Shown one piece after another: positions 47,622 through 56,521 of a DNA stretch of 64,000 bases. The DNA lies in assembly GCA_934202525.1 (NCBI GenBank), contig CAKPYB010000002.1, positions 1-64,000 of the forward strand. The letters run 5' to 3'. The translations under genes were made by a program, and so were the position numbers. The notes beneath the pieces were generated by a model. The model ran no database searches. It was not told the DNA's origin and was given only the letters and a program-made list of their open reading frames with translations. Position 1 is the first letter of the stretch; every line of letters begins with the position of its first letter. The DNA comes from an uncultured Prevotella sp. (GTDB lineage Bacteria; Bacteroidota; Bacteroidia; Bacteroidales; Bacteroidaceae).

Positions 47622-47651
47622 GCTAGAGAGCAAGCACCCTTGCCCTCTAGC
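47622..47651 (-). terminator. terminal hairpin of the candidate RNA
   Basis: On + : GCTAGAGAGCAAG (47622-47634) pairs with CTTGCCCTCTAGC (47639-47651). T-rich sequence follows on the minus strand after a short A-rich spacer. Confidence 0.6.
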
Positions 47652-48043
47652 CTTCTACTTTTTGGAAAATTTACGGTAGATGTGGTCGGCACATTGTCGT
47701 TAATCCTTTAGAAAGTACCCATCTCTCCACCGGTGGAACGACATCCGTGTAGCCATTCCCAAAACATAACTAACTTGTCCACTTGCCTTTTGGCATGGCT
47801 CTTCAACATCCGTGAGCCAATTCTTTGTTACGATGGTTGGTAACGATGGTTACTTTACGTTATTTCTTGTCGGTCAGCCTAACAACTACGTCTTGTGATG
47901 TTCAAGACTTCATCATATTGTCCCGAAGGCTTCGCACCCAGTCGTTGCCAACTACGCACGCTTCGGTAGGCTACTCTTAACGGAATAAGAGGTTCTTTAG
48001 TTTCAAAGAACAATTACTTGTACGACTTCACGTCGCAATTTGG
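47622..48043 (-). ncRNA. candidate structured noncoding RNA, ~420 nt
   Basis: Read on the minus strand, this coding-poor segment has a TATCTTTG -7 box just upstream. The pairings, in + coordinates, are: 48022-48036, 47992-48011 (GTTCTTT/AAAGAAC), 47974-47991 (CTCTTA), 47940-47953 with a GCAA tetraloop, 47922-47929 with a UUCG tetraloop, 47890-47908 (GTCTTG/CAAGAC), 47840-47853, 47797-47818 (GGCTC/GAGCC), 47784-47795 and 47727-47736. The 5' TGGGTGC (48041-48047) can pair with 47934-47940, closing a domain. Two hairpin loops carry the same 9 bases CACGGATGT (47741-47749 and 47806-47814). A terminal hairpin is at 47622-47651. It is not tmRNA, RNase P RNA, SRP RNA or an obvious group I/II intron core. 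Confidence 0.6.
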
Positions 48044-48046
48044 GTG

Positions 48047-48054
48047 CAAAGATA
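48047..48054 (-). promoter_or_regulatory. -7 box TATCTTTG for the candidate RNA
   Basis: Minus-strand ATTATCTTTGCACCC. The start point should fall a few bases into the GCACCCAAATTG sequence. Confidence 0.65.
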
Positions 48055-52140: not shown

Positions 52141-52197
52141 GTCCCACCGTGGTACGCATCGTTGAGAGGCGTGGTGGGATTTGTTGCTGCAAAAATA
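52141..52197 (-). promoter_or_regulatory. -7 box and leader hairpin of Abi_2 stub 1
   Basis: Minus-strand TATTTTTG (52190-52197), then a leader with TCCCACC...GGTGGGA (+ 52143-52149 and 52174-52180 region) and GCGTACCAC in its 3' arm, ~25 bases before the ATG. It parallels the element at 56142-56198. Confidence 0.6.
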
Positions 52198-52358: not shown

Positions 52359-52688
52359 TTAATCCTGTGCCTTTTCTCGCAAATGGTGGATTTGTGTGTT
52401 CGAAGTACAATTGGCACAGGCAAGGTTCTTGACATTCAAGAAGAAGTCTCTTGAAAGCGCAAGATCAATGTCCTCACTGAAACGATTGATGATGTTCCAT
52501 CCCTTGCTAAGACTTGTACCACCTTTGAATAAGAGATACTCGCCAATACTGGTATGGAATATGACATAGAGCACAGCCGTTACCCACCAGTCCTTTTCGG
52601 CAGATGCCTCATCTATCTGCTTTTCATCGCTGACAGCCTGTATCATCGCCTTGCGCTCATCTATTGTAAAATCTATCCATTTGCTCAT
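52359..52688 (-). pseudogene. AbiEii-type nucleotidyltransferase toxin, truncated
   Basis: From ATG 52688, overlapping the antitoxin stop by four bases. It carries FKGGTSLSKGWNIINRFSED, then IDLALSRDFF, the nucleotidyltransferase motif (GGTxLSK...R.SEDIDL). After about residue 87 the family sequence stops, and a short unrelated tail (NLACANCTSNTQIHHL) leads to the stop. Full AbiEii proteins are ~250-300 residues, so most of the toxin is missing and it is probably inactive. Confidence 0.8.
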
Positions 52689-53293
52689 AATGCCTTGTCT
52701 TTCATGTTTCGTCTGATAATATTTCTCATCCATACAGGAGCCAACAGCAGGTCGTGCTCTATAGTCTCCGTTTCAGGATTTTCCGCCAACAGCTTGGAAA
52801 TTTGCTTCTCATCCTCATCCGTTATGTTGTTTTCGCCAATACAGCGAAGTGCCTGTACAAGATCACGCATCAACACGCCTTTAAAAGCAAAGTTTCTTGG
52901 AGCACCATGCTTCAATACGACCATGCGTTTTCCCATGGAGAGTTTTCTGCTGGAGCCTGTCGTAAGGAAACTCGTTGTCATAGGCACCTGTGTAGAGAAG
53001 CCCAATTGGTTGGCTGCTGTCACTCCAGTAGGAATTATCACCGCCTTGTCTCGCTTGGCTATTTCCGATGCTAATTCAAAGGCAGAAGGGTACAGTATGC
53101 CAAAGCGAGTCTTGCGTGCCTTGACATACACACCTTTTGATATTCGGGAGATAATCCCCTCCTTCTCGAATATCGCCAGTAGCTTGGTGACGTATTCCAC
53201 ATCATACTGCGGAAAGGATGACACGAAGAACACCTCCCCGAACTTACAATGTGCTATCTTGCTCTTAATTTTGTTTACTACAGCTTCTTGCAT
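52685..53293 (-). CDS. AbiEi/DUF6088 family antitoxin
   Basis: 202 aa from ATG 53293 (MQEAVVNKIKSKIAHCKFGE); earlier in-frame codons lie upstream of or in the promoter at 53344. N-terminal winged helix (FPQYDVEYVTKLLAIFEKEG, then IISRISKGVYVK), then the C-terminal DUF6088 part (IPTGVTAANQLGFSTQVPMT). It neutralises and autorepresses AbiEii-type toxins in type IV systems. The toxin downstream is truncated, so this may now be an orphan antitoxin or repressor. Confidence 0.85.
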   Translation of the reverse strand: MQEAVVNKIKSKIAHCKFGEVFFVSSFPQYDVEYVTKLLAIFEKEGIISRISKGVYVKARKTRFGILYPSAFELASEIAKRDKAVIIPTGVTAANQLGFSTQVPMTTSFLTTGSSRKLSMGKRMVVLKHGAPRNFAFKGVLMRDLVQALRCIGENNITDEDEKQISKLLAENPETETIEHDLLLAPVWMRNIIRRNMKDKAL

Positions 53294-53343
53294 AGCTTTA
53301 CTATTTGATTTTTGGTCGGAATCATTGCAAATATTTCCGACTG

Positions 53344-53351
53344 CAAAGGTA
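53344..53351 (-). promoter_or_regulatory. -7 box TACCTTTG for the AbiEi gene
   Basis: Minus-strand TTACCTTTGCAGTC, ~45 bases before ATG 53293. The plus-strand repeat promoter is the only other thing in the 53294-53612 gap. Confidence 0.65.
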
Positions 53352-53442
53352 AGGTTTTTATACCGTAAAGCCATACTTGTACTCTATATTTTATAGATTA
53401 TTATACAAATATTATCTTAGAATTTTATGTCAAGCATGAATA

Positions 53443-53706
53443 TTAACGCAAAAAGTTCTAATTTCCATGTTTTTCCCCTCACAATCTATGGCAGAAATGT
53501 TAATGGAATTTCACATAACTCTGCAAGGTGATTTTTGGTGGTGTAGGAAAAATGTAGTATCTTTGCACCTGTAATCAAGAACATTATTAATCACTAAAAA
53601 AACTAGAAAATTATGAAGAAAGAAACTTGGAAACAGATTTTTCAGATTGTACTCACAATCTTGACGGCGCTCGGCACTACCCTCGGAGTAACATCATGCA
53701 TGGGGG
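53443..53706 (+). repeat. 264-bp direct repeat, copy A
   Basis: Nearly identical to 56258-56521 (offset 2815). It spans the promoter module and almost all of the smalltalk gene. The inner 103 bp (53487-53589) also matches 51973-52075. -7 box TATCTTTG at 53558-53565. Confidence 0.92.
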
Positions 53707-56257: not shown

Positions 56258-56521
56258 TTAACGTAAAAAGTTCTAATTTCCATGTTTTTCCCCTCACAAT
56301 CTATGGCAGAAATGTTAATGGAATTTCACATAACTCTGCAAGGTGATTTTTGGTGGTGTAGGAAAAATGTAGTATCTTTGCACCTGTAATCAAGAACATT
56401 ATTAATCACTAAAAAAACTAGAAAATTATGAAGAAAGAAACTTGGAAACAGATTTTTCAGATTGTACTCACAATCTTGACGGCGCTCGGCACTACCCTCG
56501 GAGTAACATCATGCATGGGGG
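56258..56521 (+). repeat. 264-bp direct repeat, copy B
   Basis: Second copy of 53443-53706. Inner 103 bp at 56302-56404, -7 box TATCTTTG at 56373-56380. Confidence 0.92.

Follow-up and report, generated by a model that had tools for sequence, protein, structure and literature searches.

Introduction

An excerpt of a review of bacterial group II introns (PMC4424553) lists three target specificities, namely homing sites, terminator motifs and attC sites, and promoters are absent from that excerpt. Here we describe a group II intron remnant in an uncultured Prevotella sp. (GenBank assembly GCA_934202525.1; positions 1 to 64,000 of contig CAKPYB010000002.1, forward strand, a stretch of 64,000 nt hereafter called the window), together with a clade of Bacteroidota introns, of which the remnant is probably a dead member, whose copies lie 7-10 nt 3' of the promoter box TAnnTTTG. 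Among the open-access papers listed by a literature search, none reports promoter insertion by group II introns. If true, promoters would be a fourth target specificity, one that would link a retroelement to transcription initiation.

Several described systems bear comparison with this clade. Group IIC introns, which lie behind terminators, and the attC-site introns likewise use a functional DNA landmark instead of one homing sequence (PMC4424553, same excerpt), but here the landmark is a promoter and the RNA matches Rfam family RF02012. The reverse transcriptase (RT) of copy L070 scores 537 bits with 6me0 but 116 bits with the GsI-IIC RT, and the insertion behind an intrinsic terminator by which group IIC is recognised was not seen, the sites having promoter boxes and the flanks not having been scanned individually for terminators. 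The group II maturase reverse transcriptase 6me0 is the nearest solved chain in the Protein Data Bank (PDB), matched over residues 18-496 of the L070 RT; it differs in that its 562-residue chain extends past residue 484, where the L070 match ends. The mobile intron RmInt1 resembles the promoter clade in having an RT without an endonuclease domain. According to PMC8914252, ribonucleoproteins (RNPs) of this kind require single-stranded DNA, which RmInt1 gets at the replication fork, whereas a single strand at the promoter is proposed here.

A truncated intron in the window

The initial annotation had placed at 47622-48054 a candidate minus-strand RNA of about 420 nt, of no class that it recognised, and an Rfam search had been set beforehand as the check that could overturn it. 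That search returned a significant match to a known class: minus-strand positions 47992-47883 align to the whole of RF02012 (group-II-D1D4-7, model positions 1-151) at 88.7 bits, the cut-off being 34. Size, fold and mobile neighbourhood had spoken for a novel class of large, structured noncoding RNAs. This match rules the idea out, the nearest relatives have domains V-VI or an RT and are themselves introns, and we give it practically no credence.

Judged by homology, the segment is a dead copy of a group II intron truncated to its 5' part, the first 324 nt (48038-47715, minus strand, starting TTGCGAC). The 5' end was fixed by alignment plus the register of the guide pairing described below, and the 3' limit follows from the closest copies: among 100 relatives a single genome (G035) has long homologues, three copies with 76-77% identity across 341-350 nt, and all three end at the same window position, 47714. 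Two of these copies, L015 and L019, have domains V-VI further along, and the third encodes an RT (L056 and L001 being one contig); domains V-VI were also found in 8 of 18 related loci scanned. RF02012 is present in 13 of 299 genomes of the genus of the nearest genome. The domain V-VI model, RF00029, has no match anywhere in the window; the copy is without the catalytic domain V and domain VI, and the fragment cannot be expected to self-splice. As the fragment is also without an RT, its putative place in the promoter-inserted clade is assigned through the RNA similarity to the G035 copies. The 5' end does not read GUGYG: the window copy and the other Prevotella-type copies start TTGCG, and Bacteroides-type copies start GTGCG. 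Intron position 1, usually G, is T at window position 48038 and in L056, L058, L066, L091, L093, L111, L112 and L127; L112 is an intact, RT-bearing copy.

Much of what had been read from the letters proved real, the fold being that of group II domain I. The minus strand is structured (-140.2 kcal/mol, z -4.74, with 0 of 100 shuffles as good), it contains the described UUCG and GCAA stretches, and no open reading frame (ORF) longer than 51 amino acids lies wholly within the segment. The repeated 9-mer, CACGGATGT, is present twice and marks two conserved domain I motifs. Homologues carry the compensatory changes that had been called for, with at least one in 33 of the 74 pairs predicted from an alignment of 16 copies. 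The proposed long-range pairing of the first bases with TGGGTGC has true complementarity (11 nt), but TGGGTGC is held in a conserved domain I helix and the contact does not covary in the family, so it is probably incidental.

The unit as drawn did not survive: homology stops at 47714, so that the last 93 nt of the segment (47622-47714) are other DNA and not intron. Within them, at about 47622-47651 (minus strand), is the hairpin proposed as the 3' end, which is strong and by its fold a possible terminator, but which a consensus terminator scan did not pick up. A promoter and a hairpin at its ends, and a good fold, would suit a truncated copy retained as a regulatory RNA of host or element, running from about 48042 as far as the 47622 hairpin. 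Intron ancestry accounts for the fold, however, and none of the relatives searched had the truncated form joined to this 3' part; we regard such a role as very unlikely.

Most insertion sites lie just behind promoter boxes

A contig scan with an intron-internal pattern gave 90 loci, record titles covering 80 of them, and two more were added to make 92 rows. Without L055 (short flank) and eight rows whose last 30 nt were the same as those of another row, there remained 57 sites of one lineage, to which the window copy and related introns of Bacteroides belong (Bacteroides, Phocaeicola, Paraprevotella, Prevotella and Proteiniphilum), and 26 other sites. These two groups were defined after the flanks had been seen; the intron letters alone (GTTCAGCA or GTTCTTTG after the pattern) reproduce the grouping except for L106, which is cut off there.

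An exact TAnnTTTG precedes the intron by 7-10 nt in 46 of the 57 lineage sites; allowing up to one mismatch brings the count to 54, and up to two to 56. The corresponding counts for the other lineages are 0, 0 and 4 of 26. Shuffled flanks gave means of 0.23 (exact) and 4.1 (at most one mismatch) of 57 sites, and random positions in 64 lineage loci had a box in 0.26% and 2.6% of cases, respectively. The association persists when similar flanks are merged (48 of 51 sites boxed). The window copy conforms to it, with the exact box TATCTTTG at 48054-48047 on the minus strand, as the initial annotation had said, 8 nt ahead of the intron. Upstream of the box there is a second element: TTG starts 23 or 22 nt before it in 16 of the 55 boxed sites (10 and 6, respectively), and at any other position from -40 to -7 in 0-2 of the 55 (window's included). 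A TTTG motif at about -33 is described for Bacteroides fragilis (PMC7366714), and a promoter box spanning -12 to -5 for Flavobacterium psychrophilum (PMC9723704). If the box of the introns sits as in the latter species, transcription would be expected to start at 48042 (minus strand) in the window, and the introns to begin at about +4 to +7. The copies are in the sense orientation, just 3' of sigma-A type promoters and upstream of a start codon; in 7 of 8 complete Bacteroidota copies an ORF starts 9-26 nt past the RF00029 match.

The main rival explanation is that the RNP reads TAnnTTTG directly as DNA, via the DNA-binding part of its RT, and that promoters are struck only because the motif is the sigma box. 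The box is the strongest signal, its distance spreads over just 4 nt, and in other group II introns the protein makes contacts to the 5' exon (PMC4424553, as excerpted). Nevertheless, the box follows the sigma consensus, the -33 TTG, some 40 nt from the intron, is enriched too, and the distance of the box varies over 7-10 nt while the register of the guide pairing is fixed. Direct reading is somewhat doubtful in our estimate, though a serious candidate.

Other upstream sequences were seen outside the counted lineage. Copies L027, L032 and L034 form a further Prevotella sublineage with GTGCGACC at the 5' end and lie, by eye, behind exact or near TAnnTTTG boxes; a pattern search for this sublineage matched 0 of 399 genomes, and it was left out of the counts. 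Nine other-lineage copies (L046, L073, L079, L085, L086, L088, L089, L110 and L120) share a different upstream motif, GTAAGGATT, and their hosts, among the titles listed, are mostly Methylobacter and other Methylococcales. In the window itself TATCTTTGCACCC, with at most one mismatch, occurs three times against 0.07 expected, and there are two further promoter-like TATCTTTGCACCT sites at 53558-53570 and 56373-56385, both on the plus strand.

A guide sequence fitted to each site

A hypervariable loop of domain I is, by its covariation with the exon in sequence, the exon-binding site EBS1. In the window it reads UUUGGG in a domain I terminal loop (47758-47763, minus strand), and it can pair at 6 of 6 positions with CCCAAA (48039-48044, minus strand), the final six bases of the 5' exon, which form the intron-binding site IBS1. 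Over 15 copies (window's included), EBS1 makes 66 of 90 possible Watson-Crick pairs with bases -6 to -1 of its own exon, or 80 of 90 when G-U pairs are allowed; 100,000 permutations gave means of 31.6 and 44.9, and none reached the observed values. Of 20 loop offsets tried, the best was used; L053, L097 and L098 have one site in common, and the test left out 25 loci without the anchor motif, the lineage members L059 and L127 among them.

When ungapped intron columns were scanned against exon positions -25 to -1, EBS1 had an excess of 2.46 pairs, the next unrelated contact had 0.81, and no second contact (EBS2) was found. Neither pairing between intron and box nor an EBS2 was supported, for no contact other than EBS1 was recurrent or, among the ungapped columns, covarying. 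Within two sets of four close relatives, no other six-column window varies as much as EBS1, which differs at 49% of positions against a mean of 6%; L056 and L112 have identical EBS1 sequences. Such fast change on a near-fixed backbone makes these copies a natural series in which to ask how introns acquire new sites. In one 400-nt copy (L127, 3869-4270) domains V-VI follow almost immediately on domain I, and the EBS1 loop is lost.

Comparison with intron-free sites

The position of insertion is established at two sites with intron-free counterparts, at one of them with both flanks. The joined flanks of L070, a copy from Bacteroides mediterraneensis, match intron-free L203 (313 of 320) and L204 (242 of 250); the simplest explanation of a gap of five bases where the flanks meet is that these are the intron's last bases, the intron then ending CATAAC and being 2205 nt long. 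For L082 the comparison covers the 5' side only: its upstream flank (207 nt) is 98.6% identical in L216, where native sequence stands instead of the intron, with an ATG 20 nt on. L021 and intron-free L169 match only up to the box region and then diverge, which lends weak support. L074 was considered as a further empty-site case and not counted, since in its relatives only the promoter as far as the box is shared, with other genes following.

Reverse transcriptases and a sister clade within genes

When 19 RTs were placed in a tree, one branch (support 100/99) set the seven from promoter copies apart from the rest, adjoining five Bacteroidota RTs of another kind (99/97). The RTs of L112, L070 and L067 have RVT_N, RVT_1 and GIIM domains and no HNH endonuclease domain, whereas HNH is present in L081 and L102, from other phyla. 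When 399 family genomes were searched with the L070 RT, 21 had a match. Thirty RT loci were fetched and 27 given a 5' end (L180, L192 and L202 got none); three of these (L173, L174 and L193) are L070, L082 and L074, already counted, so that only 24 introns, all of the sister clade, were new. The box precedes 0 of these 24, while an open frame of 263-305 codons runs to the junction in 24 of 24, and they have five kinds of 5' end. Promoter association is therefore not general for introns in these bacteria. The sister introns (L135, L137, L175-L201), which home into genes, occur in the same bacterial families and have related RNA (L023-L026 match RF02012), but they interrupt open frames at a few repeated sites and have RT frames of 556-605 codons, against about 500 in the promoter clade.

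The sister clade bears on the possibility that insertion is broad and that only copies right behind promoters are expressed, spliced and tolerated, and hence persist. The sites are indeed all where the intron would be transcribed and a coding frame is yet spared. Survivorship of this kind would permit wide distances, however, and 54 of 57 sites have the box within the same narrow interval; truncated relics (the window copy, L021) occupy the same place, and the sister clade persists within genes. We consider it unlikely, and suggest that targeting, rather than survival, makes the promoter pattern.

Small circular plasmid records (L020, L136 and hit H10; 1971, 2418 and 2471 bp) each seem to be mostly one group II intron, and are either real circles or assembly artefacts.

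A model for insertion at promoters

In the reading that we consider likely, the clade, whose RT is without the HNH endonuclease domain, has promoters as its target, perhaps DNA that is melted in the initiation complex. Host polymerase would transcribe a 5' exon of a few bases plus the intron, EBS1 would pair with this short exon through IBS1, and the intron would splice out, which supposes that splicing can proceed from so short an exon. The RNP, made of intron RNA and this RT, would then reach another promoter, reverse-splice into DNA exposed close to the start site, given an IBS1 match of about six nt there, and be copied into DNA. The initiation bubble could supply a sense single strand at the right place, with a small spread of distance such as is seen, and melted promoter DNA or the polymerase itself may be what the RNP recognises. 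In its full form, the proposal is of a fourth kind of target, the promoter: the introns would reverse-splice at about +5 into the open complex in which transcription is initiated, led there by polymerase or sigma factor together with an EBS1 of some six bases, which is different in almost every copy and fits the copy's own site. The first few transcribed bases would then make up the whole 5' exon. We hold this version to be evenly poised between right and wrong.

Several observations sit poorly with insertion guided by the promoter. Three of the 57 sites (L077, L083 and L090) have no box at one mismatch or fewer, the window's own box has no TTG 22-23 nt upstream (checked by eye), and the complete copy L058 has no start codon nearby. 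The L028/L111 copy pairs at just 2 of 6 positions with its own IBS1, the poorest value, despite an exact box. For L091 and L111, 80 relatives each yielded no site without the intron. Finally, L135 and L137 of the sister clade, with longer proteins, also have no Pfam HNH match; absence of HNH is not specific to the promoter clade, and its loss would be common, at least partly, to the sister clade.

DNA behind the break and neighbouring genes

The part behind 47715 was not attached to the intron in any relative searched. Immediately past the break, 47714-47677 (minus strand) is 89% identical over 38 nt to a stretch of genome G001, in which a second stretch, about 1 kb from the first, resembles 47700-47655. 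A palindrome-like sequence, TGTGC-N4-CACATCTA, occurs twice in G001 (L002, 1501-2522), about 1 kb apart, and once at the intron break (47655-47714), no second copy being found within the window; it could be a recombination site. Phage records gave no match to the segment. Farther along the window an abiF RNA (RF03085, 46.9 bits) lies at 52142-52178 on the minus strand, adjoining ORFs at 52359-53374 (minus strand) that comprise a DUF6088 protein and a short AbiEii-like ORF matching just the start of its profile.
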